64,000 nt of DNA from positions 2,176,501 to 2,240,500 of the forward strand of contig NZ_CP040517.1 of NCBI RefSeq assembly GCF_005849285.1, in the 5' to 3' direction. Under the pieces are notes generated by a model. The model searched no databases and had not been told where the DNA came from. It saw only the letters and a program-made list of their open reading frames with translations. The stretch comes from Luteithermobacter gelatinilyticus. GTDB taxonomy: Bacteria; Pseudomonadota; Alphaproteobacteria; Sphingomonadales; Emcibacteraceae. Within the stretch, counting starts at the first letter, position 1. Each line of letters opens with the position of its first letter. Both the position numbers and the translations under genes were made by a program. Of the stretch, positions 33,659 through 60,790 are shown piece after piece.

Positions 33659-33729
33659 TCTTGCGCCGCCTTGCCTTGAGGCAAAAAAGCCCGTATTCCT
33701 CGTCAAGAACACAAAAACGAGGATATACC

Positions 33730-35166
33730 GTGAGCACTCCCTATGCCGGTTTTACCGAAGATGCAAATATCGTAGTCCGGGAACTGACCCGGTTTCTGGA
33801 ACAATCCAGGAGCCGGGCGTATCCGGCCATTCATCAGAAACCGCTGGGCGACATTGTCGATGCCCTGAAGCTGGAAGATCTGCTCAGCCAGGGCGGCCTG
33901 GCTGGCGAGACCCTGGAACACTTTCTCAAAACCTATCTGATCAACACCACCCGGCTGCATCATCCGGGGTATCTGGCGCATCAGGTCACGGCTCCCCATC
34001 CCACCGGGGCCCTTGGTTCGCTGATTGACGGTTTCAGCAACAATCCCGGCACGATCTATGAAATGGGGCCGGCCGCTACCGCCATTGAAATCTTCATGAC
34101 CAACTGGATGCTAAAAAGGATCGGCTGGACGCCCGCGCCTTATGACAGTGCGCAAAGCGCCGCACAGGAGCATGGCGGCGGGGTGCTGACCCATGGTGGG
34201 TCCCTGGCCAACCTCACAGCCCTATTGGCGGCGCGCAGCCATATGGTTCCCGACTTCTGGAAAAAGGGAAACCCCGGCAACCTGGTGCTGCTGGTACCGG
34301 AACAATCCCATTATTCCCTGAAACGCAGCGCCGCCATTCTGGGTTATGGCGAGGACAACTGTCTTGCCCTGCCAGCCGACAAAGAAGGCCGGGTCGATGC
34401 CGAACGTTTGCCTGAAATTCACGATCAGCTCAGTGCAGAAGGCAAAAAAGTCGTAACCTTAGTCGCCAATGCCTGTGGCACAGCGGCCGGATTGTATGAT
34501 CCGCTGGAGGAAATCGCCCGCTTCTGCCGGGACAAAGGGATCTGGCTACATGTGGATGCGGCCCATGGCGGCGGGGCACTGCTGTGCGAGGAGTTGCGCC
34601 CTCTCACCCGCGGTATTCATTTGGCCGATTCCGTAATCTGGGATGCGCATAAAATGCTGCGCACCCCGGCGGTCTGTGCCGCTGTTCTGGTGCGCGATCA
34701 CCGCACCCTTGACCGGGCATTTATGCAAGACGCCAGCTATCTGATCCATGAGAAGGATCAGCCAGGTTATGACTTGCTGCATCGCCATGTGGAATGCACC
34801 AAGGCGGCATTGGGGCTACGGTTTTTCATGGCCTTCGCGGCAATGGGAGAGAAGGCCATGGCGGACTATATTCTGGATCGGGTACGCCTTGCCCAGGATG
34901 CGGCACGGCTGATTGCAGAAGATGCGGCGCTTGAACTTGCCGTCATGCCGGAAACCAACATTGTCTGTTTCCGCCTGCCAGGGGATGACGAGCTGCAACT
35001 CACGCTGCGCAAGCGGCTTCTGGAACGGGGTGATTATTATATTTCCTCTACCATGTACAAGGGAAAGCGCTGGCTCCGGCTTGTGTTTATGACACCTGAA
35101 ACCACGTTGGAGGACGTGCGGAACATGCTGGAAACGATCAAGGCGCTTCGCGCGGAACTGCCCTGA
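33730..35166 (+). CDS. PLP-dependent decarboxylase (group II amino acid decarboxylase family)
   Basis: 478 residues from a GTG start at 33730, seven bases after GAGG. The open frame continues upstream without a ribosome site. The fold-type I PLP motifs are HVDAAHGGGALL (cofactor aspartate) and DAHKMLRTP, with the Schiff-base lysine at about 308. A C-terminal segment (STMYKGKRWLRLVFMTPETT) closes the domain. The family covers glutamate, diaminobutyrate, aromatic amino acid and cysteine-sulfinate decarboxylases. The substrate is not clear from the sequence. It begins 71 bases after the flavin oxidoreductase and may share its transcript. Confidence 0.85.
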   Translation: MSTPYAGFTEDANIVVRELTRFLEQSRSRAYPAIHQKPLGDIVDALKLEDLLSQGGLAGETLEHFLKTYLINTTRLHHPGYLAHQVTAPHPTGALGSLIDGFSNNPGTIYEMGPAATAIEIFMTNWMLKRIGWTPAPYDSAQSAAQEHGGGVLTHGGSLANLTALLAARSHMVPDFWKKGNPGNLVLLVPEQSHYSLKRSAAILGYGEDNCLALPADKEGRVDAERLPEIHDQLSAEGKKVVTLVANACGTAAGLYDPLEEIARFCRDKGIWLHVDAAHGGGALLCEELRPLTRGIHLADSVIWDAHKMLRTPAVCAAVLVRDHRTLDRAFMQDASYLIHEKDQPGYDLLHRHVECTKAALGLRFFMAFAAMGEKAMADYILDRVRLAQDAARLIAEDAALELAVMPETNIVCFRLPGDDELQLTLRKRLLERGDYYISSTMYKGKRWLRLVFMTPETTLEDVRNMLETIKALRAELP

Positions 35167-46487: not shown

Positions 46488-47213
46488 TTATTTTTCATAT
46501 GTTCCGTCATCCTGCGCCGTTTCCCGGACAGAAGGCCAAGCTTTTCGTTCAGGTCCGAAATATGTTGCTGTCTGTTGTAGCGCCTCAAGGCAGTCCTCTC
46601 GCCTCCAGTTCGCCTTCAGCCGGGCGGCGATGATCCCTGTCATATGGGCGGTGCCCAGACTCGCCCCGGCAGCCTCAGGGGTATCCGGCGCAGAAGGCAC
46701 AATTCCCCGGGGGCAGGCCCCAAAGTCCGCCTGGGCCGAATTGAGATAGGAATATTCATGGGGAGCGCAGCGGGCATCCCCGGTGGTGCGGATCACCCCC
46801 GCATATGCCGCCGGATAGACTGCCGCACCCCGCGCCGGTGATGCGGCACAGATCACAACCCCCGCCGCCACCGCCCGGGCACAGGCTTCCGAAAGAACCT
46901 GCCGGTCATGGCGCAGGCCAAAGCTCATATTGATGACCTGAACCCCACGGCTGACCAGCCAGTCAAGCGCCGCAGCAACCACCACCGGAGCCGTGACTGC
47001 GCGGCCGTGAAATACCTGGGCGCTCAGGATTTCCACATCGGGCGCATGAAACGCAATGACCCGACTGATGGCTGTGCCATGCCCGAGACGGTCTGGACGT
47101 ACGGCCATATCCTCCACCCGACCCGCCTCATCGAGCATAAAAGCCCGGCTGTCCACGACCCGGGACGACAGTTCAGGGGCCACGCCGCTGTCGATCAGGC
47201 CGACCTTAACCAT
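46488..47213 (-). CDS. qhpE: Subtilisin-like serine protease of quinohemoprotein amine dehydrogenase maturation
   Basis: 241 residues from the ATG at 47213, six bases after GGAGG, overlapping the end of qhpF by eight bases. The S8 catalytic triad is Asp8 (GLIDSG), His45 (GHGTA) and Ser184 (GASLGTAHMTG). The usual oxyanion asparagine region is CAASPARG. There is no signal peptide, so it acts in the cytoplasm. In known systems QhpE removes the leader peptide of the QhpC subunit after crosslinking. The assignment rests on the triad, the small size and the qhpF-qhpG neighbours. Confidence 0.85.
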   Translation of the reverse strand: MVKVGLIDSGVAPELSSRVVDSRAFMLDEAGRVEDMAVRPDRLGHGTAISRVIAFHAPDVEILSAQVFHGRAVTAPVVVAAALDWLVSRGVQVINMSFGLRHDRQVLSEACARAVAAGVVICAASPARGAAVYPAAYAGVIRTTGDARCAPHEYSYLNSAQADFGACPRGIVPSAPDTPEAAGASLGTAHMTGIIAARLKANWRREDCLEALQQTATYFGPERKAWPSVRETAQDDGTYEK

Positions 47214-48924
47214 GCCCGTCCTCCGCCACGAGTTTCTCCCGTAGCCCTCCCCGCTCCATGATATAGGTTCGGTCCGGACAGAAGGCGGCAAGGGGTCGGT
47301 GACTGATGACAATCAGGGTCACCCCCGGCATGGCACCTTCGATGGCGCGAAGCAGATCGGCTTCCGTGTCCCGGTCAATGGCGGACGTGGCCTCATCCAG
47401 AATAACCACTCTGGGCTGACGCAGCAGCGTCCGCGCCAGCGCCAGGCGTTGTTGCTGCCCACCGGACAACATGGCGCCCTTTTCCCCAACCAGCGTGTCA
47501 TACCCGTCCGGTAGTTCGTCGATGAAGGTATCGAGACGCGCCAGGCGGGCCGCCGCCTTCACCTGTTCCAGGGAGGCGTCGCGCCGGCCAAAGCGAATAT
47601 TGTCGGCGATGGTTCCCCTGAACAACTGCACATCCTGGCTTACCAGGCCGATCAACTGTCGGATTTCTTCCGCCTTCAGGCGGCGCAGGTCCACCCCATC
47701 CAGATAAATGGCGCCCTGATCCGGGACATAATGCCGGCATAACAGGTCCATCAGTGTGGTCTTCCCCGCCCCGGACGGTCCGGTAATCAACACCTTTTCC
47801 CCACGGCGAATGCCGAGATTGATATCTTTAACCCCCTGCCCGTCCCGGCCAGGATGGGTAAAGGAGACCCCTTCAAGCCGCAGTTCTCCCAAGGCCGTTT
47901 CCCCCAGATGCTCTGGCGCCTCCGGGTCACGCACCTTCACCGGTTCGGCGCGAACTTCTCTCACCCTTTTGAGACTTACCATCATACGTTGCCAGCCCAC
48001 ATAGAGACCGAGAAAAGTCTGCACCGGCCCCGTCGCCCGGGCCATATAGGCGGAAAAGGCCACCAAGGTGCCGACTGTCGCCTCACCTTGAATCAGCAGA
48101 TAAGCCCCAGCGACAAAGACCGCCGCCGTCGCCACTGTGGTCAAAAGCCCCGGCACCCCGGACGTGACGTGATTAAGGATCTGCAACTTGAGAAGGCGAT
48201 CCAGATATCCGCTGTTCAGTTGGTGCAGACGACGTCGTTCTGCCTCTTCCACGCTCATGGTCTGAATCAGCTTGACGCCCATAAGGCTTTCCATGAGATA
48301 ACTGACAATGTCAGAAGATTTTTCGCGCACCTCACGGGTCTGTCGTTCCACCCGCGGCCTCAGACGTTTCAAGAACCAGACCTGCACCGGCAACAGCACA
48401 AACACCACCAATGTCAGTTTCCAACTCAAATACAACATCACCAGAAGACTGCCCAAAAGGGCCAGCAGGCCATTGACCACTGCCAGCAGGCTGTCGGTGG
48501 CAAACCGCTGCACTTCGGCCACATCGCCATCCAGCCGGTTCAGAATATCCCCCCGTCGCCATCGGGCAAAAAAATCCGGCGCCAGACGCAACAAATGGGC
48601 ATAGACATCTTCGCGCAGGCGAAACAGGATACGCCCCGACAACGCCACATAAAGCCAACGATTAATGCCGCCCAGCACAAACACCACCACCGCCATCAGG
48701 ACAATTAGCCCGGCAAAGGTAATCACCCGGTTAAGGTTTCCGGCGATCAGGCCCTCATCAATCAGGAGTTTGGTAAAATAGGGCTGCGCGAGGGCAAACA
48801 GGGTCATGATGGCGGCCATCAGCATCACCATCAATAAGTGCCCTGCCTCCGGCCGGATAAAGGACATCACCCAGCGGCGAATCTGTTTTTTATCCTGATC
48901 ATTCAGGTCCTGGAAACGGGTCAT
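47206..48924 (-). CDS. qhpF: ABC transporter of quinohemoprotein amine dehydrogenase maturation
   Basis: 572 residues: a six-helix ABC exporter domain (about 20-310) and an ATPase domain with Walker A GPSGAGKTTLMDLL (about 380), a canonical signature LSGGQQQRLALARTLL and Walker B VVILDEATSAID. As a full-length half-transporter it should work as a homodimer. In studied qhp clusters QhpF is needed to export the processed QhpC subunit to the periplasm. The start overlaps the qhpG stop by four bases. Confidence 0.86.
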   Translation of the reverse strand: MTRFQDLNDQDKKQIRRWVMSFIRPEAGHLLMVMLMAAIMTLFALAQPYFTKLLIDEGLIAGNLNRVITFAGLIVLMAVVVFVLGGINRWLYVALSGRILFRLREDVYAHLLRLAPDFFARWRRGDILNRLDGDVAEVQRFATDSLLAVVNGLLALLGSLLVMLYLSWKLTLVVFVLLPVQVWFLKRLRPRVERQTREVREKSSDIVSYLMESLMGVKLIQTMSVEEAERRRLHQLNSGYLDRLLKLQILNHVTSGVPGLLTTVATAAVFVAGAYLLIQGEATVGTLVAFSAYMARATGPVQTFLGLYVGWQRMMVSLKRVREVRAEPVKVRDPEAPEHLGETALGELRLEGVSFTHPGRDGQGVKDINLGIRRGEKVLITGPSGAGKTTLMDLLCRHYVPDQGAIYLDGVDLRRLKAEEIRQLIGLVSQDVQLFRGTIADNIRFGRRDASLEQVKAAARLARLDTFIDELPDGYDTLVGEKGAMLSGGQQQRLALARTLLRQPRVVILDEATSAIDRDTEADLLRAIEGAMPGVTLIVISHRPLAAFCPDRTYIMERGGLREKLVAEDGHG

Positions 48925-50276
48925 GACAGCTCCAGCAAGTTGCGATACGCCAGCCAGTTCAGCGCCGTACCGATATGTTCCGGCGCCTGGTCAAGCTGTT
49001 GCGCGAGCGTAGAAATATCCTGACATCCCTGTTGGTAGAGGTCCAGCAACGTCACCAGTTCCACCCCAGCAACCTGCCATACCCCGCGCGGATGATCGGG
49101 GGTCACCACCACCTGCGCCGCCTCAACGATCCCGTTGCACACGACCGGTTTTGTCTCGATCTGTGCCGGCGCGGACAATGGCGGTGGATGTGATGCTGCC
49201 CGGAGGGGCAGATCATGGCGTTTTTTCCAGAAATGACCCTTGGACCAGCGCTGTTCCTGACGATAAAATTCCTGTTGACTGCCCAGCAGCCGGACAAAGG
49301 ATTGTTCCATACGGCTTTCATAATACGCCTGCGCCAGCGCCCGGTTTTCTGGTTTGCGAAGCCAGGTATTGACCACCGGTACAGCGGCAAGTCCGCCCCC
49401 CAGCGCCTCGAAAATACCGTGACCGGACAACGGATCCATCGCTACGGCCGCATCCCCCACCCGCAGGCTGCCCAGCCCAATCAGTGGGCGACTGATGCGG
49501 CTTGCGGCATGACGCACCTTAACCTCTCCTCTGGCTTCGGCATCTTTCAGGAACGGCCATATCGCCTTCAAGCCTTCGGCAAGGCCTGTAAAATATTCCC
49601 CCAGCCGTGCCCGGGGCGGCAGATCTCCCCGCTCGCTATCGACAAAAATTTGCAAAACAGCTTTGCTTTTTTCGCCCGACACAAACCAGGCCCAACCGTG
49701 TTCAAAACTGGCCACTGCCGTCATCGGCCGAACGTGACGCGGCAGGACGTAAGGCCGATATAGCGCCGAAAGCGGCAGAGTGATCTCGCGCCCCCTATTT
49801 TGGGACAACCCCAGGGCAAGACCCGATTTTTGGCCCTGACCGGCCTCCCGTCCGCGCGCTTCCACCAGGTAATCTGCCTCATACACATATCCCCCAGCAG
49901 AAACCTGCCAACTTTTGTCTTTCAGAGACACCCCGCCCGCGCTGGCTTCCACCACATTCACATGACGCCGGGCCGCATCCCACAGAAGCGCCTGATCAAA
50001 CAAACGGCGGTTCAGGATATATTCGTGATTGACACGGCGCCGCGCGCCACCCCAGGAGACTTGCCTAGGCACCCGCGGCCCCACACTGTCCAGTGCGGCG
50101 TCCAGCCGGTGGGCTTTCAGGGTTTCATATCCCCGCTCAGACAGCCCTTCCCAGGCATCAAAGGGCCGCATGCGGGTAATCAGCGTGACATGATGCCCAA
50201 GATCTGCAAGCCCCACCGCCGTCATCACCCCGGCCGGGCCACCCCCCATCACAATGATGACCTTGTCTTCCGCCAC
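48921..50276 (-). CDS. qhpG: FAD-dependent monooxygenase of CTQ cofactor formation
   Basis: 451 residues. The N-terminal FAD motif is VIIVMGGGPAGVMTA (GxGxxG-like, about residues 6-20), and a second FAD motif, SLRVGDAAVAMDPLSGHGIF, lies near 280, as in tryptophan-halogenase-like monooxygenases. The C-terminal 90 residues form a small helical domain (LVTLLDLYQQGCQDISTLAQ). QhpG hydroxylates the tryptophan of QhpC that becomes cysteine tryptophylquinone. The gene is first in the minus-strand qhpG-F-E row and divergent from qhpD. Confidence 0.85.
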   Translation of the reverse strand: MAEDKVIIVMGGGPAGVMTAVGLADLGHHVTLITRMRPFDAWEGLSERGYETLKAHRLDAALDSVGPRVPRQVSWGGARRRVNHEYILNRRLFDQALLWDAARRHVNVVEASAGGVSLKDKSWQVSAGGYVYEADYLVEARGREAGQGQKSGLALGLSQNRGREITLPLSALYRPYVLPRHVRPMTAVASFEHGWAWFVSGEKSKAVLQIFVDSERGDLPPRARLGEYFTGLAEGLKAIWPFLKDAEARGEVKVRHAASRISRPLIGLGSLRVGDAAVAMDPLSGHGIFEALGGGLAAVPVVNTWLRKPENRALAQAYYESRMEQSFVRLLGSQQEFYRQEQRWSKGHFWKKRHDLPLRAASHPPPLSAPAQIETKPVVCNGIVEAAQVVVTPDHPRGVWQVAGVELVTLLDLYQQGCQDISTLAQQLDQAPEHIGTALNWLAYRNLLELS

Positions 50277-50612
50277 GCGTTCTGTGCCTCCTGTCCCTGT
50301 TCATCTTATCGGGACATAGCACAGATTGAGGTTGTGATAAACAGCGGGATCACCCGAGCGCCCCTGTACCGCTCAACACATTTCCGGCAAACACATTTTA
50401 TGTCACTTTGAGACAAGCTTTGTGCCATGGTCACGATATAGTAGACTGCGAGTCTATGGATGCGGGCATAAAAAACACCGTCACCGCGAGTCCCGAAAGG
50501 GGCGCGATGATCCATAAGCGGTAAGATGCAGGATAGCCTGGATCGCATCGCGGTGTGTGCCATGACGATGCCAAGAACGGCAAGGAAAAAGGAACTGGGT
50601 CAGGAGCAATAA
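50277..50612. other. Divergent qhpG/qhpD intergenic region
   Basis: A 336-base gap with no credible gene. No open frame here resembles a QhpC subunit or other small cysteine-rich protein. It must hold both promoters. Its right half carries several inverted repeats that can fold in the qhpD transcript, described as a separate entry. No sigma-54 (GG-N10-GC) promoter was convincing. Confidence 0.6.
50442..50580 (+). ncRNA. Candidate structured 5' leader of qhpD
   Basis: Several inverted repeats stack here. TAGACT-GCG-AGTCTA (50442-50456) is a perfect hairpin. CACCGCGA (50482-50489) pairs with TCGCGGTG (50548-50555). GCGATGATCCA (50504-50514) pairs with TGGATCGCATCGC (50539-50551) apart from a two-base bulge. 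GCG-AG-TCCC-GAAA-GGGG-CGC (50486-50505) can form a GNRA-capped stem. Some of these pairings exclude one another, as in a switching leader. It ends about 20 bases before the qhpD ribosome site. It matches no riboswitch class recognised by eye. Confidence 0.4.
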
Positions 50613-52109
50613 ATGTCAGGGTTGGTCACGGAAAATCAGAAAACTCAGGGACTGAAATTTCTGTCGCATAACGCCCATGAAGTCCGGGTCGGAAACCGCA
50701 GGATTCTGTTCCATATTCCCACCTCTTCCCTGTTTGACCTGGATGAGGTCACCGGCGATGTGCTCGACCTGTTTCGGGAAAAGGGGGACGTTACGCTTGA
50801 GGACCTCAAAGGCCGTTTTGCCGGGCGTTATAGTCCGGAACAGATTCTTGACGTGCTCAACGACTTTCAGGACATGCAGATCATTTCCGGCAAAGGAGCG
50901 TCCCGCCCTGATTATCCAGCCATCAAGATCGAAAACTACCCGCTCAGCACCATCATCCTGAATGTGAATACCGGCTGTAACCTGGGCTGTAGCTATTGTT
51001 ACAAGGAAGACCTCACCACGCCTGCCAGAGGCGAACGCATGGATCTGGACACCGCCAAAAAATCCATTGACCTGCTGTTTAAGGAAGGCCAGAACCGTGA
51101 CCGCGTCAATGTGGTGTTTTTTGGAGGCGAACCGTTAAGTAATATGCCCCTCATCCGCGGCGCCGTGGAATACGCAGAGGATCGGGCCCGAAAAGAGGGC
51201 AAGAAGGTAGATTTTTCACTCACCACCAACGCCACACTTTTAACCGAGGATATTGTTGATTACCTCAACGCCCATAACTTCGGCATCGCCATCAGCATGG
51301 ATGGCCCCAAAGCCATTCATGACAAGAACCGTAAGACCGTTGGCGGCAAAGGAACCTATGACGTGGTGGCGCAGAAGGCAAGAATGTTGCTGAACAGATA
51401 TACGGCGCGGCCGGTGGGCGCACGGGTGACCCTGACGGCCGGGGTTACCGACGTGATCGGCATCCATCATCACCTGAAAAACGACCTGGGTTTCGCCGAG
51501 GTGGGCTTTGCCCCGGTGACCAGCGGCGAGATCGCCATTTTCAACCTGAACGGCCCGGAACTGGCGGAGGTATTCGCCAATATGAAACAACTGGGCCGTC
51601 AATATCTGGATCATGCCCTCGAAGACCGCAATAACGGTTTTTCCAATATGCATCAATTGATGACCGATCTGTATGAGGGCACTAAAAAGGCCCTGCCCTG
51701 CGGCGCAGGGATCGGGCTTCTGGCCGTGGACCATGAAGGTGAACTGAATCTGTGTCATCGCTTCACCGGATCCGATGTACCCACCTATGGCAATGTGGAG
51801 ACCGGCATCAACAAACCGGAACTGGGCGCCTTTCTGGAAGCCCGGGCGGAACGGGATGGCACCTGGTGTGATACCTGCCGTATCCGCAATCTGTGTTCCG
51901 GAGGCTGTTACCATGAATCCTACGCCATGTATGAAGATCCGCAGCACCCCACCTATCACTATTGCGACCTGATGCGCGACTGGGTAGATTTCGGCATTGA
52001 GGTCTATGCCACCATTCTGGACAAGAATCCGGGATTCTTCGAGCGGCATGTAAGCCCCAGAGTGGTGCTCAACACCGAACGCAGCTACAGCGTCCTCCCT
52101 GCGAATTAA
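50613..52109 (+). CDS. qhpD: Radical SAM/SPASM maturase of quinohemoprotein amine dehydrogenase
   Basis: 498 residues with AGGAG six bases before the ATG. The radical SAM motif is CNLGCSYC (Cys122, 126, 129), followed by FFGGEPL. An N-terminal peptide-binding region (about 1-100) resembles a RiPP recognition element. C-terminal cysteines from about residue 363 to 460 (LPCGAG, NLCHRF, WCDTCRIRNLCSGGC, YHYCDL) form the SPASM domain for auxiliary Fe-S clusters. QhpD makes the intrapeptide Cys-to-Asp/Glu thioether bonds in the QhpC subunit. The usual partner genes qhpA, qhpB and qhpC are not next to it here, which is unusual. Confidence 0.9.
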   Translation: MSGLVTENQKTQGLKFLSHNAHEVRVGNRRILFHIPTSSLFDLDEVTGDVLDLFREKGDVTLEDLKGRFAGRYSPEQILDVLNDFQDMQIISGKGASRPDYPAIKIENYPLSTIILNVNTGCNLGCSYCYKEDLTTPARGERMDLDTAKKSIDLLFKEGQNRDRVNVVFFGGEPLSNMPLIRGAVEYAEDRARKEGKKVDFSLTTNATLLTEDIVDYLNAHNFGIAISMDGPKAIHDKNRKTVGGKGTYDVVAQKARMLLNRYTARPVGARVTLTAGVTDVIGIHHHLKNDLGFAEVGFAPVTSGEIAIFNLNGPELAEVFANMKQLGRQYLDHALEDRNNGFSNMHQLMTDLYEGTKKALPCGAGIGLLAVDHEGELNLCHRFTGSDVPTYGNVETGINKPELGAFLEARAERDGTWCDTCRIRNLCSGGCYHESYAMYEDPQHPTYHYCDLMRDWVDFGIEVYATILDKNPGFFERHVSPRVVLNTERSYSVLPAN

Positions 52110-52142
52110 AAAGGGAGCAGGCTTTAAAAAGAGGCCTAAACT

Positions 52143-52174
52143 GGGCGATAAAAATTTGTGATATTTTTATGCCC
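52143..52174. terminator. Hairpin downstream of qhpD
   Basis: GGGC-G-ATAAAAAT and ATTTTTAT-GCCC form a 12-pair stem with one bulged G, 33 bases after the qhpD stop. There is no T-run, so it may be a Rho-type or processing hairpin, or an operator for the downstream peptidase gene. The rest of 52110-52326 is AT-rich and holds no gene. Confidence 0.45.
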
Positions 52175-52326
52175 CCTGGCAAAATAATATGCTGCCTGTA
52201 TGTTTCTTTACAGAAATAAAAACCAAAATTATTTCTGATCTGCGTTATGTCTTGCCCCCTTCTGCTGATATTGCCATATATATTTTATACAAAATATCAT
52301 TCCACCATAAAAACAGGACAGGCATC

Positions 52327-53544
52327 ATGACAATAGGCGTAGGCGGTTCCACCATCGAAGCAGAACTGGACAAACTTTCCGACATGACGGCGGATATTGT
52401 GCCTATTGATATAGCAGAGTTTCAGGCCCGTCTGGACAAAGCCCGTACCCTGATGAAAAGGCAGGGACTGGACGCCATTTATCTCAATGCCGGCACCAAC
52501 ATGACCTATTTCACCGGCACCAAATGGTATGCCAGCGAACGCATGGTCGGGGCAATCCTGACGGCCGACGGATCGCTTACCTATATTGCGCCGGTCTTTG
52601 AGATCGGCACGCTCAAGGACTTCATGGTGATCGACGGGCCAATCGCTGGTTGGCAGGAACATGAAAGCCCCTATGCCCTGTTTGCCAGTCGGCTCAAGAA
52701 CATGGGACTTCAAGGCGGGCGCATCGGTCTTGACGAGGCGACGCCCTTTTTTATTGTTGATGGTCTGCGTCAAGCCGCCCCGGCCTGTGACTTTGTCAAT
52801 GCGACCCCCGTCACCGCCGGCTGCCGGATGATCAAAAGCCCCGCCGAAATTGCTCTGATGCAGCGGGCCAAAAACATGACGCTGGAAGTACACAAGGCCG
52901 CCGCCCGTATCCTTCGCCCTGGCATTTCCACCACGGAAGTGACGGCCTTTATTCATGAAGCCCATAAAAAGGTGGGGGCTCCCGGCGGCTCCAGCTTCTG
53001 TATCGTGCTGTTTGGCGAACCCACCGCCTACCCACATGGGGTTAAGGATCCCCAGATCCTCAGGGATGGCGATATGGTACTGATCGACACCGGATGTCTG
53101 TTGCATGGGTATAATTCCGATATCACCCGCACCTATGTCTATGGCCCGCCAACCGACCGTCAGCGCGAGGTGTGGAATATCGAAAAAGCGGCGCAGGCAG
53201 CAGCCTTCGAAGCGGCACAGATCGGTGTGCGCTGTGGCGATGTGGACCGGGCCGCCCGCACCTATCTGGAACAGCAGGGATTCGGTCCCGGCTATGACCT
53301 ACCCGGCCTGCCGCACCGGACCGGCCACGGCATCGGCCTGGATATCCACGAATGGCCCTATCTGGTCCTGAGCGATGACACCCCGTTGGCCCCCGGCATG
53401 TGTTTTTCCAACGAACCCATGATCTGTATCCCCGGGGAATTCGGGGTCCGGCTCGAAGATCATTTTTACATGACCGAGGACGGGCCGCGCTGGTTCACAA
53501 CCCCCAGCCCCAGCATTGATGACCCCTTCGGGCTTGGGCAATAG
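52327..53544 (+). CDS. M24 family metallopeptidase (Xaa-Pro aminopeptidase/prolidase-like)
   Basis: 405 residues from the ATG at 52327 (MTIGVGGSTIEAEL). The frame remains open upstream but that part is AT-rich and unlike the family. The N-terminal creatinase-like domain (about 30-160) precedes a pita-bread catalytic domain with all five metal ligands visible: Asp in VLIDTGCLL, Asp in NSDITRTY, His in RTGHGIGLD, Glu in FSNEPMI and Glu in RLEDHFYMTEDG. It cleaves peptides next to proline. No link to the qhp genes is evident beyond position. Confidence 0.9.
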   Translation: MTIGVGGSTIEAELDKLSDMTADIVPIDIAEFQARLDKARTLMKRQGLDAIYLNAGTNMTYFTGTKWYASERMVGAILTADGSLTYIAPVFEIGTLKDFMVIDGPIAGWQEHESPYALFASRLKNMGLQGGRIGLDEATPFFIVDGLRQAAPACDFVNATPVTAGCRMIKSPAEIALMQRAKNMTLEVHKAAARILRPGISTTEVTAFIHEAHKKVGAPGGSSFCIVLFGEPTAYPHGVKDPQILRDGDMVLIDTGCLLHGYNSDITRTYVYGPPTDRQREVWNIEKAAQAAAFEAAQIGVRCGDVDRAARTYLEQQGFGPGYDLPGLPHRTGHGIGLDIHEWPYLVLSDDTPLAPGMCFSNEPMICIPGEFGVRLEDHFYMTEDGPRWFTTPSPSIDDPFGLGQ

Positions 53545-53711: not shown

Positions 53712-54032
53712 CTACTCTCCTTCCGCCTCGCGGATCTGTTCATGATGGCGGATGACTTCCCGGATGATAAAATTGAGGAATTTTTCGGAGAAATCAGGAT
53801 CCAGATGCGCCTCTTCCGCAAGCCGGCGCAACCGTTCGATCTGGCGCTTTTCACGTTCCTTATCGGCGGGCGGCAGATTATATTTCGCTTTGTATTCCCC
53901 GACTTTTTTGGTGATCTTGAAACGTTCCGCCAACATATAAACCAGGGCGGCATCAATATTGTCGATACTTTGCCGATAAGCCGTCAGCTGGGCTTTAAGC
54001 TGTTGCTGGTCCGGCATGTCCCTGTCATTCAT
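53712..54032 (-). CDS. Chorismate mutase (AroQ class)
   Basis: 106 residues, all helical, from the ATG at 54032 with GGAG seven bases upstream. AroQ landmarks are YRQSIDNIDAALVYMLAERF (about 19-38, with the substrate-binding arginine), KKVGEYKAKYNLP and the C-terminal FLNFIIREVIRHHE. It converts chorismate to prephenate for phenylalanine and tyrosine synthesis. It lies apart from other aromatic biosynthesis genes. Confidence 0.92.
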   Translation of the reverse strand: MNDRDMPDQQQLKAQLTAYRQSIDNIDAALVYMLAERFKITKKVGEYKAKYNLPPADKEREKRQIERLRRLAEEAHLDPDFSEKFLNFIIREVIRHHEQIREAEGE

Positions 54033-54130: not shown

Positions 54131-54170
54131 CTAGTGTGAATTGTGCATAGGTTAGCCCAATTCACTCTAG
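54131..54170. repeat. 40-bp CTAG-bounded palindromic repeat, copy C (inverted)
   Basis: The arms CTAGTGTGAATTG and CAATTCACTCTAG pair with one mismatch. The reverse complement aligns with copy B throughout, including the loop ending CCTATGCA, so this copy is inserted in the opposite orientation. Its terminal CTAG supplies the TAG stop codon of the flippase gene. Confidence 0.82.
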
Positions 54171-55768
54171 CCGGCCTGCTGCGCCGCCCGTTTGCCGCCC
54201 AGCCGGGCCCGCAATTTTTCCTTATCTTCCGGTTCCAAGCCAATCAGAATAAGGCTTGCGCCATACAGAAAAATCAAAAGAGGAATACCCAGGAAAACGC
54301 CCCACCCATGTATCAAATCCAGCGGAATGAAATTCAGGGCCTGATAAAAAATGCCGCTGCAGATCAGCGCCGCAAACGGCACTTTGAACAGTTTGGCGCT
54401 GAACATCCGAATTCCGAACAGGCGACGGATGAGATAAAGCCGAATGGCATTCATGGTCATATAGGTCAACATCAACGCCAGCGCCACACCGCTTGCATCC
54501 ATGCCAAATAATTGCGTGAAAATCCAGGCCATAAGCACATAAAGCGGGATCATCATCAGGGAAATCGCCGGATTATACAGTGGGTTACGATAAATCAGCG
54601 GCAGATCCGATGTGCCAAACCCGCCATTAATGGTCTCCCCGATCATCAGCATCAGGAGAATGGTTCCCCCCATGGCCAGAATGCCCGTTTGCGTATCGCC
54701 ATTGGCCACGGCGGCAATCACCGCCTCGCCATAAAAACCGGACCAGACCACTATCAGACACTGCACCATCAAAATCCAGCGCGACACCATAACCATATGC
54801 CGCTCGACCCGGGGATAATCCCGGCGCACCAGGCTGCTGGACATCACCGGCGCAAGGATCGGATAAAAGCTCTGATAGATTTTTTCCACGCTGGTGGCAA
54901 ATTGCTGGGCGATGGTATAGACACCAAGCACCGCTTCGGAAAAAAAGAATTTTACGGTGAAAATATCCATTCGCATGAAAATCAGCAGGGCCATGTCATG
55001 AAAGGCGGTCGGGGCGGAAAAATTGGCGATTTTCAGGATCAGGCGGGGACAGGGGCGGGCAGAAAGGAAACTTTTCAGAGAATACAGATTAAACAACCCC
55101 CACAAAGCCACCGCCAGCGCCGAGAATAGCGCCACGGCATAAGCCATGAGCAATCCGTATTCATGATAGCCCAGCGCATAAAACAGCAACATGCTGCCCA
55201 AAAGGACATAAGGCTCCACAATGCTGCGGGACCAGACCTCATAACGCATCTTGCGGGTCGCCCGGGTCCCCGACAGCAGAACATCAACCGATGTGATCAC
55301 CAACAAAATGGGCGCCAGGGTCTTGAGACCGGTTACCATTTGCGGATAATCAAAAATCTCTGCCAGAAAATCCGCCGAAAAAATCAGCAGCGCCGTCAGA
55401 ATTCCCCCCACAGTCAACGACCAGCACAGGGCCGTAAGGATGACCTGCTCCGGACAATACAGCTTGGCATAGGCCCGGTCATGAATAAATTTAAATAAGG
55501 AGCGCTTCAGTCCGAACGTGGCGAACGCCGCGGCGATTTCAATGGTGGTAATGGTATAATTGTAACGGCCATAAAGTTCATTGCCGAACAGGGCCACAGC
55601 CAGAAACAGAAATGGCAGACGCGACCCCAGCCGGACCAGGAACCCGGCAAAATTGGCCCCGGCGCCACGGGCAATATCCTTTTTGTCCTTTTCCTCGCCG
55701 GGCTCTTTCCCTGCCTCCCCGCCCATCGCTGCGGACAAGGCCTGTTCGTGATTATCACTCGGGGTCAT
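54167..55768 (-). CDS. Oligosaccharide/lipid flippase family protein (MOP superfamily)
   Basis: 533 residues with about 12-14 membrane helices after a charged 30-residue cytoplasmic start. The ARGAGANFAGFLVRLGSRLPF segment at about 34-54 is the usual first-helix entry of Wzx-like flippases. Such proteins flip lipid-linked sugars or lipids across the inner membrane. It follows the secreted protein gene by 23 bases and ends in a repeat element that provides its stop codon. The neighbouring phosphatidyltransferases suggest a phospholipid-like or lipid-linked cargo rather than a standard O-antigen, because no glycosyltransferase is near. Confidence 0.85.
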   Translation of the reverse strand: MTPSDNHEQALSAAMGGEAGKEPGEEKDKKDIARGAGANFAGFLVRLGSRLPFLFLAVALFGNELYGRYNYTITTIEIAAAFATFGLKRSLFKFIHDRAYAKLYCPEQVILTALCWSLTVGGILTALLIFSADFLAEIFDYPQMVTGLKTLAPILLVITSVDVLLSGTRATRKMRYEVWSRSIVEPYVLLGSMLLFYALGYHEYGLLMAYAVALFSALAVALWGLFNLYSLKSFLSARPCPRLILKIANFSAPTAFHDMALLIFMRMDIFTVKFFFSEAVLGVYTIAQQFATSVEKIYQSFYPILAPVMSSSLVRRDYPRVERHMVMVSRWILMVQCLIVVWSGFYGEAVIAAVANGDTQTGILAMGGTILLMLMIGETINGGFGTSDLPLIYRNPLYNPAISLMMIPLYVLMAWIFTQLFGMDASGVALALMLTYMTMNAIRLYLIRRLFGIRMFSAKLFKVPFAALICSGIFYQALNFIPLDLIHGWGVFLGIPLLIFLYGASLILIGLEPEDKEKLRARLGGKRAAQQAG

Positions 55769-55791
55769 GATTTATCCTTATCCCCTTATCT

Positions 55792-56949
55792 TTATCTTTT
55801 TTTTCTGACCCTTTTCTTTTTTTCCACGGTCGGGGAAAGGATATCGACAAACTCGCTCAGCGCCTTGCCGGTTACCTTTTTCGTTCCCACCCCGGTTTTG
55901 TATACCAGATCATATTCGGCAATGTAACGATATCTGTTCAGCGAGGGATATGCTTTTGCCAGCATGCGTTCCAGGCTGCCCATATGGTCGTTCAGCCGGA
56001 AATGTTCTAATTTTTTGGTCAGAGTCAGGGTCCCTTCCAGCATACTATCGCCATTCCTGGCGGACAGGTGAAGTTTCACGGGATATTGACCAAGTTCTTT
56101 ATCTTCCCCATAAACCAGGGGCGTCACCCTGATGTCCCTGAACCCGTCAATGATATCCTGGGCCCCGCGCAAATACAGCATATTTTCCTGCGCGCCTTTC
56201 GGCAAGGTAATGGAAGACAGGATCAATTCCGGGCCGGCCCCATTGTCCAGAGAAAACACCCGGAGCCAAGTATCCATTAGCTTATCCAGGTTGTCATTCA
56301 CCAAGACGCGCATGCCAAACCCTGCCCCCTGCCCCAGGGAAATCCACGGGCCATGTTCTTCGCCGCCCACTTCCGGTCCGATCCGGAAACGCCCCGTCGC
56401 CGTAAAGTAAGGAGCATAGGCCATCATCTGAATCTTGTCAGCTTTAAGATTTTTGCTGTTCTCCGGCAGCAAAGGCAAGGCCACAGGAAGATGGGACGTC
56501 AGGTCAAGCTCGACTTCCGCCGTCGTATTATGCAGTTTCAGCTGATAATCGGGATAGGCGCCGCGAATATAATGATCAACTTCGTCGCCGAAACGGATGT
56601 CGAATTTGTCTTCCGCATAGACCCAGTCCCCAAATGCCCGGCCGTTCTTAATAATATACGTGGCCCCATCCGGACGCACCAACGTTGCCAGCACGATTCC
56701 CCGGTGTTTGTTAAACGGCAGGTTGAGCACGGAAAACTGGGTCGTCAGCAGTGTGCCGTCCTCAAAAACAAAATACTGATCCCAGTATTCCTTGTATTCC
56801 TGGGCATCTCGCAATTCCGGTTTATGCCGGTCGGGGTGACGCGACTGTGTGTTCAGCCCATCGGCGAAACCGGACTGAACAGAGAGGGACGAGGCAAAAA
56901 ACAGAAACAATAAGGCCACCGCCTGCCGCTTCAGAATACATATCTTCAT
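55792..56949 (-). CDS. Secreted protein of unknown function in the lipid locus
   Basis: 385 residues. An N-terminal signal peptide (RQAVALLFLFFASSLSVQSG, cleavage near GFADG) is followed by an apparently beta-rich protein without membrane segments. Repeated aromatic and Gly-Asp turns (WDQYFVFEDGTLLTTQFSVL; GRAFGDWVYAEDKFDIRFGD) suggest one or two lipocalin-like barrels, a fold also found in AttH/CrtC-type proteins, but that is inference from pattern only. The C-terminus is very basic (KKKRVRKKR). It sits seven bases from the phosphatidyltransferase stop and is probably co-transcribed with it and the flippase. It may bind or modify the exported lipid. Confidence 0.7.
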   Translation of the reverse strand: MKICILKRQAVALLFLFFASSLSVQSGFADGLNTQSRHPDRHKPELRDAQEYKEYWDQYFVFEDGTLLTTQFSVLNLPFNKHRGIVLATLVRPDGATYIIKNGRAFGDWVYAEDKFDIRFGDEVDHYIRGAYPDYQLKLHNTTAEVELDLTSHLPVALPLLPENSKNLKADKIQMMAYAPYFTATGRFRIGPEVGGEEHGPWISLGQGAGFGMRVLVNDNLDKLMDTWLRVFSLDNGAGPELILSSITLPKGAQENMLYLRGAQDIIDGFRDIRVTPLVYGEDKELGQYPVKLHLSARNGDSMLEGTLTLTKKLEHFRLNDHMGSLERMLAKAYPSLNRYRYIAEYDLVYKTGVGTKKVTGKALSEFVDILSPTVEKKKRVRKKR

Positions 56950-56956
56950 TCAGGAA

Positions 56957-57847
56957 TTACTCCGCAAGTGCGTCTCTCAGCCGGCTTGTATAGAGTGTAT
57001 TATATCTTTTCTGTTTCTGGACAAGCGCGAAAAGCACAAGGTTCAAGACCGCAATTTCAAACCAGAAATACCATAAAGGTTCTTTGAAAATACAGGCAAT
57101 AAATATGGCAAAAGTGCGGTAGTTGGCGCACATCACAGACCATACTTTCACCGACCGGGCAAACGTTTCCCGATACAGCCGGCGCATTTCGGCATGTCGG
57201 TCGGGATGTTTGAGAAAAATTTCATGAATATGCCGCCGCTGTTCACAGGTCACCCCGGAAAAGGCATATTGCATTTTTACATACCCGCAATTGAGCCAGA
57301 AGGAGAGTCCCTGCACCCCCCCATTAGTGGGTTTTTTCAGGTCGTGAGGGTCCGGCAGGCGCGCAGAAGCCTTGCCATGCCCCCAATAATCATATTCCTG
57401 ACGCTGAACTTCATAAGCGCCCGATTGAATGGCGTGGGATGCGCCGGCGCCCAGCACCACGATCCAGACCCAAAGACCCAGTTCCGCGGACAAGGCCAAA
57501 GCCAGCCCCACATAAACGGAAATGAACACGACATAATCACAAATCCCGTCGATCACCTTGCCGAATTCCGACTGGGTCTGTGTCAGTCGCGCCAGCTGCC
57601 CGTCCGCACCGTCCATGATATGCCAGATCAACATGAACGCAAAACCGGCCAGGGCAAAAGCGGTGTTCTGATATTGTGAATAGGCCACCCCTGCCAGAAC
57701 CCCCGAAAACATACCACTAAGAGAGACCGCATTCGGGCTGACCCGCAAACTGGCCAGCCGGGGAACCAGCCAACTGCTGATGGGGTGAATGAGATAAAGA
57801 TTCGTAAACTCCTCTATCTCACTGGTGCGTTTTACTGTTTCTGACAT
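56957..57847 (-). CDS. CDP-alcohol phosphatidyltransferase family protein
   Basis: 296 residues with about six membrane helices. The complete family signature is present: D79-x2-D82-G-x2-A-R-x8-G-x3-D100-x3-D104, the metal-binding and catalytic aspartates. It transfers a phospho-head group between a CDP-alcohol and another alcohol in the inner membrane. A charged soluble insertion (about 150-215, including GHGKASARLPDPHDLKKPTN) distinguishes it from PgsA and PssA. Substrates are unknown. It begins 17 bases after the fused enzyme upstream, so the two act in one pathway. Confidence 0.88.
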   Translation of the reverse strand: MSETVKRTSEIEEFTNLYLIHPISSWLVPRLASLRVSPNAVSLSGMFSGVLAGVAYSQYQNTAFALAGFAFMLIWHIMDGADGQLARLTQTQSEFGKVIDGICDYVVFISVYVGLALALSAELGLWVWIVVLGAGASHAIQSGAYEVQRQEYDYWGHGKASARLPDPHDLKKPTNGGVQGLSFWLNCGYVKMQYAFSGVTCEQRRHIHEIFLKHPDRHAEMRRLYRETFARSVKVWSVMCANYRTFAIFIACIFKEPLWYFWFEIAVLNLVLFALVQKQKRYNTLYTSRLRDALAE

Positions 57848-57864
57848 GATACCTGATTATATTA

Positions 57865-59223
57865 TTAGAAAATCTTGGTTTTTTGGAAGGTTTTGACAAA
57901 CTCCTCGCTGGTCGCCTCCATCAGATTTTTCGCATGGTATATGATTCTGATCTGATGAACAAAGAAAGTAATGATGCCGTAAGCACAAATAAAAATGAAC
58001 CCGGCATACCAGGCCCCGAACAGGCCAAAGGGGATGAGCGCCCACATCTGGGTATTGCGTCGCCCGCCAATTAGACGAAACTTACGATCAAACGCCCCAG
58101 CATCACAGATCTGCCGATCTGACATGCGGCGGAAAAATTCGGCCTGAATTTCATCGGCCAGATGGAACAGCACCAAAGCCCCGGCAAAAACCCACGGCGC
58201 AAAGCCGTAAAGCGTGGACAAATAGCCGCCAATAGCAAAATACCAGCCATACTCCACAACCTTGTCCACCACATGTTCGATTTCCCCGATCTTGGTCTGC
58301 ATCAACTTGGTACGGGCCAGTTTACCGTCAACCCCGTCCAGAACCCCGACGACCAGAGCCCCGGCCAGGGCAATCCCCATCTGCCCCGTGGCAAACAGAT
58401 ACATGATATAAAATCCCAGAATACCGGTCGCCACCGTAACCTGGTTTGGGGTGATAGGCAGATTGCAGATGTTTTTGACAATCCAGTTTTCTATGGGGCG
58501 ATGAATAAACCAGGCCGGCCAGTCCAGGGTTCCTTTCTGGGCATTTTGCAACAACGCCTCAGTACCTTTTTCCCCGTCACGTTTGTTTAAAATCGGCAAC
58601 CAGAGAATTTCCACATCCCGACGGCGGTTGGCGAGATACAGCGGGAGGCTGGAAATATTGAAAATTTCGCAGTCATTGGACACAGCGATATGCTCCAACG
58701 CGTCTTTCAGCGTTTCCAGACTGTTCAGTTTGTCCGCATGGGTCTGCATGGTCTGGCCTGAAATCAGCGCCACCGAAGCAAAAATTGTCTCTTCACCCCG
58801 CAAGGACAACGGAATACCGTAACTGGCTTTTTCTTCGGGCATATAGTTCCGGTCCATTACCGCAATCACAGACCCCGACTCATGACCGGCCACAGCTCCT
58901 AAAATCCGATCGTCCACCAGCACCCCTTCTTCCAGCAGAAGCCATCTGTCCAGCTCATGATTGCTTTCCAGCAGTTTGACCGGGGCTTCCTTGGTACGAT
59001 GGATAAAAACCTTTTCAGGTTTGTTACGATAAGACAGAACGGCCTTTTCGAACTCGCTCACAAACCAGTCGGTAATCAAATGCACTTCCTCAACGCCATA
59101 TCGCTTGAGAAGCTTAAGCTGGCGTTCCAACAGCGTAATCCCTCCAACGGGGATCAGGTTGCGCGCGAGTGTGCTCTCTGTTTCGGATTCCTGCCCTGTA
59201 ATCAGGATTGCCTTATTCGCCAT
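57865..59223 (-). CDS. Fusion of nucleotidyltransferase-like and CDP-alcohol phosphatidyltransferase domains
   Basis: 452 residues from the ATG at 59223, five to six bases after GAGGA. The N-terminal 220 residues have a nucleotidyltransferase outline (NLIPVGGITLLERQLKLLKRYGV), but the usual GxGxR loop is replaced by GQESETESTLAR. The C-terminal half (about 240-450) is a membrane phosphatidyltransferase with D296-x2-D299-G-x2-A-R-x8-G, after which the signature reads G-x2-E-H-x2-D instead of G-x3-D-x3-D. The domain order recalls the bifunctional CTP:inositol-1-phosphate cytidylyltransferase/di-myo-inositol-phosphate-phosphate synthase of thermophiles. Here it more likely makes and uses a CDP-activated polar head group. 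It is first in a run of four same-strand genes. Confidence 0.82.
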   Translation of the reverse strand: MANKAILITGQESETESTLARNLIPVGGITLLERQLKLLKRYGVEEVHLITDWFVSEFEKAVLSYRNKPEKVFIHRTKEAPVKLLESNHELDRWLLLEEGVLVDDRILGAVAGHESGSVIAVMDRNYMPEEKASYGIPLSLRGEETIFASVALISGQTMQTHADKLNSLETLKDALEHIAVSNDCEIFNISSLPLYLANRRRDVEILWLPILNKRDGEKGTEALLQNAQKGTLDWPAWFIHRPIENWIVKNICNLPITPNQVTVATGILGFYIMYLFATGQMGIALAGALVVGVLDGVDGKLARTKLMQTKIGEIEHVVDKVVEYGWYFAIGGYLSTLYGFAPWVFAGALVLFHLADEIQAEFFRRMSDRQICDAGAFDRKFRLIGGRRNTQMWALIPFGLFGAWYAGFIFICAYGIITFFVHQIRIIYHAKNLMEATSEEFVKTFQKTKIF

Positions 59224-59256
59224 ATTTTCCTCGCCTGTTTGCCCCAATCATGCCTG

Positions 59257-59356: not shown

Positions 59357-60790
59357 TCACATTTTTGAGAGAAAACGGGCTTTTTCCTGAATAAGTCGCC
59401 ATGAGTCGTCGATATGACGCTGTTCCGTATAGGGGGACCCCGACACAAAACGCAGAACATACCGCCCCTGAACCCGGGTCTGTGTCAGATACAACTGCCC
59501 GCTGTCATTAATATCTTCCAGCAGTTGGGCATTCAAACGATCCAGCGCCTCGTCGGTCAGACCGCCCGGATTATACCGGAAACACAACAGCGCCAAAGGA
59601 TGCGGCGCGACAATTTCAAAATCCTTTTCCTGTTTCATCTTCTGGGCCAGCTGCTGACAAAAGTCTATATGCCGGCGAATATGTGCCTGAAGCCCCTCGA
59701 CCCCATAGGCACGCAGCACAAACCACAGTTTCAGTGCCCGAAACCGCCGCCCCAGCGGCACCCCCCAGTCGCGATAATTAATCACTTGGTCCCCTTCACG
59801 GGTCTTGAGATATTCTGGCAGGATTTCGAAAGTACGGACCAGAGTCTCCCGATCCCGCACATAAAAGGCGGAACAGTCAAACTGGGTCAGAAGCCATTTA
59901 TGAGGATTGAAAACAAAACTGTCTACAAATTCGATGCCATCAATCATCCAGCGATATTCCGGCAGCACCAGAGCGCTTCCCGCCCAGGCGGCATCCACAT
60001 GCAACCAAATCCCGTATTTGTGGCAGATTTCGCCGATGGGCCGCAAGGGATCAATGGCGGAAACGGACGTGCTGCCCAATGTCGCCACCACGCAGGTGGG
60101 CAGGCAGCCGGCGTTCAGATCGCTTTCAATGGCATGTTCCAGTTCCTCAGGGATCATGGCAAATGTTTCATCCACCGAAATCTTGCGCAGATTTCCGCTG
60201 CCAAGCCCCGCGATGCGAATGCCTTTATCCGTCGAACTGTGCACCTCTGCCGAGGCATAACAGGTATGCTGCCCGGTCACACTGAGCCCCGTATGATTGG
60301 TGGTGAAATTGTGCAAGCGTTCGCGGGCACATAAAAACGCGGAAAGCATGGCCGACGATGCAGTGTCCTGAATGCTGCCGTGAAACCCATCGGGCAGTCC
60401 GGTGATTTGTCTGAGCCAGTCCAGCATACGGGTTTCAAGTTCGGTGGCCGCCGGCGACGTCTGCCAGCTCATACATTGCGCTGCAAGCGTCGCGGTCAAC
60501 ATTTCCGCCAGCACAGACGGCGGGCTGGCATTGGCCGGGAAATAAGCCATAAATCCGGGATGTTGCCAATGTGTCATCCCCGGCAGAATGATGTCCTGGA
60601 AGTCCCTGAAAATATCTTCCATCGCTTCCCCCGTTTCAGGGGCGGCCGACGGCAGTTTGGCGGCAATTTCTCCCGGTTTCACCGGCGCCTTGACCGGATA
60701 TGCTTCAATATTTTCCAGATAATCAGCCATCCAGTCGACAAATTTGTGAGCCTGGGCACGAAAATCTTTTCTGAAATCCTTGAAGGCCAT
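59357..60790 (-). CDS. PLP-dependent decarboxylase (aromatic-L-amino-acid decarboxylase family)
   Basis: 477 residues, the length of DDC-type enzymes. It contains FMAYFPANASPPSVLAEML, HVDAAWAGSALVLPEYR and FNPHKWLLTQFDCSAFYVRD, with the PLP lysine at about 298. The F-N-P-H-K-W motif and the arrangement of the first 100 residues place it with aromatic amino acid (tyrosine, tryptophan, phenylalanine) decarboxylases, although some relatives use serine or other substrates. Its product could be an aromatic amine. A 133-base gap separates it from the lipid-locus genes downstream on the same strand. Confidence 0.87.
   Translation of the reverse strand: MAFKDFRKDFRAQAHKFVDWMADYLENIEAYPVKAPVKPGEIAAKLPSAAPETGEAMEDIFRDFQDIILPGMTHWQHPGFMAYFPANASPPSVLAEMLTATLAAQCMSWQTSPAATELETRMLDWLRQITGLPDGFHGSIQDTASSAMLSAFLCARERLHNFTTNHTGLSVTGQHTCYASAEVHSSTDKGIRIAGLGSGNLRKISVDETFAMIPEELEHAIESDLNAGCLPTCVVATLGSTSVSAIDPLRPIGEICHKYGIWLHVDAAWAGSALVLPEYRWMIDGIEFVDSFVFNPHKWLLTQFDCSAFYVRDRETLVRTFEILPEYLKTREGDQVINYRDWGVPLGRRFRALKLWFVLRAYGVEGLQAHIRRHIDFCQQLAQKMKQEKDFEIVAPHPLALLCFRYNPGGLTDEALDRLNAQLLEDINDSGQLYLTQTRVQGRYVLRFVSGSPYTEQRHIDDSWRLIQEKARFLSKM

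Follow-up and report, generated by a model that had tools for sequence, protein, structure and literature searches.

The four-gene locus FUS-PT2-SEC-FLIP of Luteithermobacter gelatinilyticus is probably (probability about 0.66) the membrane arm of a cytidine diphosphate (CDP)-inositol pathway of marine alphaproteobacteria, with inositol phosphorylceramide as its most likely product. That the locus serves an inositol lipid can be said with high confidence. It is situated in a 64,000-nucleotide window (contig NZ_CP040517.1, positions 2,176,501 to 2,240,500); positions below are those of the window unless the genome is named. FUS (59223–57865, 452 aa; an alternative TTG start at 59247 is possible) is a fusion of a degenerate nucleotidyltransferase, similar to inositol-1-phosphate cytidylyltransferase (IPCT), and a degenerate CDP-alcohol phosphotransferase. 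PT2 (57847–56957, 296 aa) is a CDP-alcohol phosphotransferase, predicted to be a CDP-inositol:ceramide (or diacylglycerol) inositolphosphotransferase. SEC (56949–55792, 385 aa) has an N-terminal hydrophobic segment and a predicted two-lobed lipocalin-like (AttH-type) fold, and is a putative periplasmic lipid carrier. FLIP (55768–54167, 533 aa) is a flippase of the MOP superfamily (Wzx-like), which Pfam and synteny suggest would flip the inositol lipid. All four open reading frames are on the minus strand, separated by 17, 7, and 23 bp. The original prediction, made from the window alone, had described four closely spaced genes on one strand and read them as an envelope-lipid locus with head-group transfer, flipping, and periplasmic handling; this overall reading is supported.

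The assignment of inositol as the head group comes from two genes on the same strand as the locus, which start 1.4 kb past the window end (genome position 2240500) and 6 kb upstream of FUS. One is IPCT (genome 2241913–2242623), encoding a CDP-inositol synthase-like nucleotidyltransferase of the MobA fold with 78% identity to the IPCT of a sister genus. The other is MIPS (genome 2242638–2243744), encoding myo-inositol-1-phosphate synthase with 86% identity to its sister-genus counterpart. The two reading frames overlap by 4 bp. The MIPS recurring beside the locus genes in relatives matches PF01658 with 120 bits (cut-off 27), and the best NCBIfam model agrees. The best NCBIfam model of IPCT is NF041135, the bifunctional IPCT/DIPPS of Thermococcales, over the N-terminal half of that model. 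The signature GxGxR...KP and the conserved Asp are intact in all 28 IPCT homologues, and the activity as inositol-1-phosphate cytidylyltransferase is predicted from these sequences. Activation is assigned to the separate IPCT, not to FUS. The original prediction could not see MIPS and IPCT because both genes are outside the window.

In the proposed pathway, MIPS would convert glucose-6-phosphate to myo-inositol phosphate, from which IPCT would generate CDP-inositol. PT2 would use CDP-inositol as the donor of phosphoinositol for a lipid alcohol, which is most likely ceramide from the serine palmitoyltransferase (SPT) operon of the same genome, yielding inositol phosphorylceramide. The inositol lipid would be flipped to the periplasmic leaflet by FLIP, and carried or presented in the periplasm by SEC. 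FUS could descend from a bifunctional protein of the IPCT/DIPPS type and, after decay, have been retained for a role other than catalysis, perhaps by partnering PT2 or IPCT.

PT2 and FUS match the Pfam family CDP-OH_P_transf with 57.2 and 37.8 bits, respectively, both above the 22-bit cut-off. In PT2, all eight positions of the motif D-x2-D-G-x2-A-R-x8-G-x3-D-x3-D are kept in 40 of 40 homologues. About 95 polar residues separate its CDP-alcohol domain from the last hydrophobic stretch, which corresponds to the extra soluble insert noticed earlier. The earlier call of a MOP-type flippase also agrees with the match of FLIP to Polysacc_synt (56.1 bits).

Gene distribution was compared among 99 genomes of the order, in which FUS was sought and the surroundings of its matches were inspected, and in a class-wide sample of 385 genomes. 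PT2 and MIPS occur together in 38 of the 99 genomes and are both missing from 55, with PT2 only in one and MIPS only in five (p ~1e-20; the phyletic p-values ignore shared ancestry, which inflates their significance). The corresponding numbers for PT2 and IPCT are 37 with both, 57 with neither, two with PT2 only, and three with IPCT only. SEC accompanies PT2 even where the two are unlinked (29 both, 10 PT2 only, one SEC only, 59 neither). Among 26 genomes of a family inferred to be Kordiimonadaceae, the same eight are marked by PT2, MIPS, and SEC. Such a patchy distribution inside one family is informative despite shared ancestry. A search with the SEC alignment yielded 24 loci, including those of Emcibacteraceae, Kordiimonadaceae, Emcibacter, Eilatimonas milleporae, and Kordiimonas gwangyangensis; the two named species each carry SEC, MIPS, PT2, FLIP, and IPCT.

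MIPS, IPCT, PT2, and FLIP are often within ~10 kb in relatives. In one sister genus (loci L049–L053, L057, and L060), PT2-SEC-FLIP is syntenic without FUS, and a pyridoxal phosphate (PLP)-dependent decarboxylase gene is missing as well. Another sister genus typically shows the order decarboxylase-FUS-PT2-chorismate mutase, and one genome (G336) shows the complete order decarboxylase-FUS-PT2-SEC-FLIP-chorismate mutase. The grouping is therefore more than chance, since PT2-SEC-FLIP and FUS-PT2 are each syntenic in a sister genus. The original prediction depended on the co-occurrence of all four genes. PT2, SEC, and FLIP do co-occur, while FUS partly does not; it is also present in four genomes (G295, G289, G313, and G317) where PT2, MIPS, and IPCT were not found.

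Several loci of relatives show further arrangements. TonB-dependent-receptor-like and FecR-like genes are located between SEC and MIPS-PT2-FLIP in three loci of Kordiimonadaceae (L063, L092, and L095), and L095 has additionally a sigma-factor-like gene between MIPS and SEC. PT2 of G380 (L031:1930-2820) is interrupted by an in-frame TGA, reflecting either a sequencing error or recent decay. In FUS-bearing sister genera (L056 and L070–L072), there is a further flippase elsewhere in the genome, coupled with an intact CDP-alcohol transferase of 380–400 aa.

Homologues of PT2 are also seen outside the order. Only two other PT2 genes were found there in the class-wide sample, and both are inside ceramide clusters. 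In G246 (L126) the order is SPT-ACP-SDR-ligase, PT2, and LptG-LptF. In G449 (L127) it is SPT-ACP, LptF-LptG, PT2-IPCT-MIPS, ligase-SDR, and GNAT-hydroxylase. Mainly because both genes sit in ceramide clusters, ceramide is preferred to diacylglycerol as the acceptor, and this choice is likely to be right. The genome of L. gelatinilyticus itself has a ceramide cluster at ~1.38–1.39 Mb. Besides SPT (NF047599, 627.7 bits, cut-off 500), it contains genes for an ACP, an SDR reductase, a fatty acyl-AMP ligase, a fatty acid hydroxylase, and an LptF/LptG pair, and a GNAT protein occupies the position of the reported ceramide synthase. Twelve of the 99 genomes carry an intact FUS-like transferase, which we infer to be of the ceramide-phosphoglycerate type. 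These 12 show zero overlap with the 39 genomes carrying PT2 (p 0.003 before ancestry correction), as expected if both serve alternative head groups on the same lipid.

In a search of a plasmid collection, PT2 homologues were found in Sphingomonas parapaucimobilis, Bacteroides finegoldii, and Parabacteroides distasonis. The S. parapaucimobilis plasmid has a three-gene run of PT2-MIPS-IPCT without FLIP. The B. finegoldii locus consists of MIPS, a nucleoside triphosphate (NTP) transferase, a hypothetical gene, the PT2 homologue, a lysyl-phosphatidylglycerol-synthase-like gene, and a HAD gene, a make-up as in the alternative inositol lipid cluster of Heaver et al. (2022, PMC9246714). The PT2 profile matches the B. 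finegoldii protein with an E-value of 1e-55, and this transferase departs from the strict motif in that the fourth Asp is shifted by one residue. The combination of MIPS, NTP transferase, and CDP-alcohol transferase in the Bacteroidetes cluster is also seen in L. gelatinilyticus and its relatives.

FUS has very probably lost its ancestral activities, judging from its motifs. Its closest curated model is NF041135, matched over two stretches with 63.9 bits, far under the cut-off of 580. It shares the domain order of these hyperthermophile enzymes, and differs from them in that both sets of catalytic residues are lost. By profile comparison with hhalign, its N-terminal half still aligns with IPCT (94.7% probability), and its C-terminal half with PT2 (97.7%). 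Neither the nucleotidyltransferase signature GxGxR...KP nor the complete CDP-alcohol phosphotransferase motif is present in any of the 23 FUS homologues. Among the Asp residues of the latter, D1 is kept in seven, D2 in 12, D3 in none, and D4 in one; D1, D2, G, A, and R are all kept in seven. D3 is replaced by H and D4 by K, each in 12 of the 23 homologues, so a changed activity via this conserved pair may exist. FUS is under purifying selection, as its identity to the G336 orthologue is 78%, higher than those of PT2 (67%) and SEC (54%), with nonsynonymous divergence (dN) of 0.165 and synonymous divergence (dS) of 1.78. It is remotely related to intact transferases adjoining other nucleotidyltransferases. 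In the genome of L. gelatinilyticus, the FUS query matched only FUS, PT2, and a 276-aa protein, none of them an intact FUS-like CDP-alcohol transferase. No FUS relatives were found in viral contigs, and no report of a dead CDP-alcohol phosphotransferase was found in the literature. In one genome of the order (G307), a fusion of IPCT and CDP-alcohol domains retains the nucleotidyltransferase signature intact (L130:5857-7242; NF041135 at 270.8 bits, cut-off 580), and a second MIPS (L130:8073-9218) lies next to it. This fusion might be an alphaproteobacterial di-inositol-phosphate enzyme, and it offers a model of what FUS descended from.

SEC matches no Pfam family above the cut-off and no solved structure by sequence. 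Modelling without an alignment gave a pLDDT of only 33, a result that was discarded; the model built from 23 sequences reached a pLDDT of 86.5 and a pTM of 0.82. Compared by Foldseek and VIA-align 2, residues 36–372 of this model match a two-lobed beta fold with Z-scores of 24.8–26.2 and root-mean-square deviations of 3.3–3.7 over 293–307 aligned residues. These matches are the pericyclases Phm7, Fsa2, and CghA (Z 25–26) and AttH NE1406 (Z 24.8), followed by kievitone hydratase (Z 22) and 25-phosphosteroid lyase (Z 21). The earlier guess of a lipid-binding barrel thus finds a counterpart in the predicted lipocalin-like lobes, and SEC might be a periplasmic carrier of the lipid. An enzymatic role may also be considered, because the fold relatives handle hydrophobic ligands, most of them catalytically. 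SEC is presumably akin to Svf1 and CrtC-type proteins. Its predicted two-lobed fold is that of AttH/CrtC/Svf1-type proteins, from which it differs by the low identity (~10%), the lack of a Pfam family, the signal peptide, and a basic C-terminal tail conserved across the SEC family. By its modelled fold, SEC may be functionally analogous to yeast Svf1, which carries two lipocalin domains and is able to bind ceramide (PMC10583516). A distant, partial relative of SEC (26–27% identity) is encoded beside a ceramide-synthase-like gene in G202.

The most serious alternative, although clearly the less probable one, is that the same CDP-inositol pathway ends in phosphatidylinositol, an ordinary glycerophospholipid, with PT2 acting on diacylglycerol. 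The evidence from MIPS, IPCT, and PT2 fits this equally. Among named families, PT2 comes closest to the archaetidylinositol-phosphate and phosphatidylinositol-phosphate synthases, and for the homologous Bacteroidetes transferase diacylglycerol was proposed as the first acceptor, followed by the action of the HAD enzyme (PMC9246714). The locus shows neither a HAD nor an AUR1-type enzyme that could subsequently move the head group to ceramide, and both PT2 genes of the class-wide sample outside the order are embedded in clusters for ceramide synthesis and Lpt-type export, which argues for ceramide. Several points weigh against inositol phosphorylceramide as the product, the diacylglycerol proposal for Bacteroidetes and the inflated p-values among them. 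Among the annotated genes surrounding the locus, none was recognised as a HAD gene. The ceramide operon is ~850 kb from the locus. A ceramide-synthase-like gene was considered as a discriminator of acceptors within the order, and failed because it is present in 96 of the 99 genomes. MIPS of L. gelatinilyticus scores 429 bits against the 638-bit cut-off of the closest NCBIfam equivalog, and the specificity of IPCT is predicted from homology to a family in which phosphoglycerate serves as a substrate too (CpgD, PMC12275187). Among the papers searched, none offered usable polar-lipid data for Emcibacter or Kordiimonas.

The other alternatives concern the head group or the kind of product, and each is improbable. 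The original prediction has FUS carry out both activation and transfer of one head group, with PT2 attaching another. Both domains are indeed found in FUS, where the IPCT/DIPPS model matches two stretches, part of the phosphotransferase motif survives in seven homologues, and the H/K pair could form a new active site. Two active transfers are nevertheless unlikely because both halves of FUS are without catalytic residues (D4 and D1 are absent from 22 and 16 of the 23 homologues, and D3 and the signature from all) and IPCT is separate and intact; the sister genus that keeps the pathway does so without FUS. A soluble osmolyte as the product, such as the di-myo-inositol phosphate of hyperthermophiles, is also hardly probable. 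FUS and IPCT are related to IPCT/DIPPS enzymes and the intact fusion of G307 is beside MIPS, but a cytosolic solute would require neither the MOP flippase nor the secreted, lipocalin-like SEC, the DIPPS-like domain of FUS is degenerate, and PT2 elsewhere is in lipid clusters. Phosphoinositol might, with similarly low probability, be placed on an undecaprenyl-linked glycan or a surface polymer with FLIP as a Wzx-type translocase. FLIP matches polysaccharide-export families, and a nucleotide-sugar C4-epimerase-like gene is directly upstream of PT2 in most loci of the sister genus without FUS (L049, L050, L052, L053, and L057). The locus, however, shows no glycosyltransferase, initiating transferase, or polymerase, and the Sphingomonas plasmid version does without FLIP.

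The genes flanking the locus are the PLP-dependent decarboxylase gene (59357–60790, minus strand), directly upstream of FUS and an uncertain member of the locus, and a monofunctional chorismate mutase gene downstream (53712–54032, minus strand; NF006691 164.7 bits, cut-off 120). The latter, conserved by synteny, probably belongs to unrelated metabolism. The decarboxylase was considered as the maker of an amine head group; it adjoins FUS in most sister-genus loci, and is not needed because it is missing where PT2-SEC-FLIP occurs without FUS. A second homologue of it is at 33661–35166. The region 47206–53544 adjoining the locus contains maturation genes of quinohemoprotein amine dehydrogenase, including those for the radical SAM protein QhpD (TIGR03906 772 bits, cut-off 453) and QhpG (NF049967 441 bits, cut-off 240), together with an ABC exporter and an M24 peptidase. 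These genes were rejected as members of the locus, as they are partly on the other strand, have their own known function, and do not recur with the locus in the relatives read. The region 184–2517 encodes an MMPL-type RND protein related to ones inside the inositol clusters of relatives.

Inositol phospholipids are rare in bacteria, and ceramide is a eukaryote-style membrane lipid. Bacteroides thetaiotaomicron BT_1522-1526 likely leads to the same end product and also starts with MIPS; however, instead of CDP-inositol it uses phosphatidylinositol-phosphate as an intermediate, together with a phosphatase and an AUR1-like transferase (PMC9246714, PMC8791184). The ceramide diphosphoglycerate (CPG2) pathway of Caulobacter shares CDP-activation by the IPCT-related CpgD, a CDP-alcohol transferase, ceramide, and Lpt-type transport, and unlike the present locus involves a phosphoglycerate head group and a ceramide kinase step (PMC11324152, PMC12275187). 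The alternative Bacteroidetes cluster, which is unconfirmed and whose NTP transferase was proposed to make CDP-inositol (PMC9246714), shares MIPS, the NTP transferase, and the PT2-homologous transferase. Its HAD hydrolase and lysyl-phosphatidylglycerol-synthase-like genes are not seen in the present locus, which adds FLIP, SEC, and the degenerate FUS, is alphaproteobacterial, and has in relatives a version linked to ceramide clusters. It can tentatively be speculated that there is a third, one-step route to inositol phosphorylceramide, in which a CDP-alcohol phosphotransferase puts the phosphoinositol of CDP-inositol straight on ceramide, with neither an AUR1-type enzyme nor phosphatidylinositol as an intermediate, and which in several lineages is regulated or scaffolded by a dead descendant of the bifunctional CDP-inositol enzyme.

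An inositol-ceramide-like lipid has been seen in Novosphingobium acidiphilum, for which the genes were not found (PMC9246714). The MIPS-IPCT-PT2 module, seen in ceramide clusters of two remote genomes and on the Sphingomonas plasmid, provides a short list of candidate genes for alphaproteobacterial inositol lipids. The conserved, apparently dead fusion FUS might be an example of a pseudoenzyme involved in making lipid head groups. The alphaproteobacterial module would also lend the unconfirmed Bacteroidetes pathway an independent genomic context.

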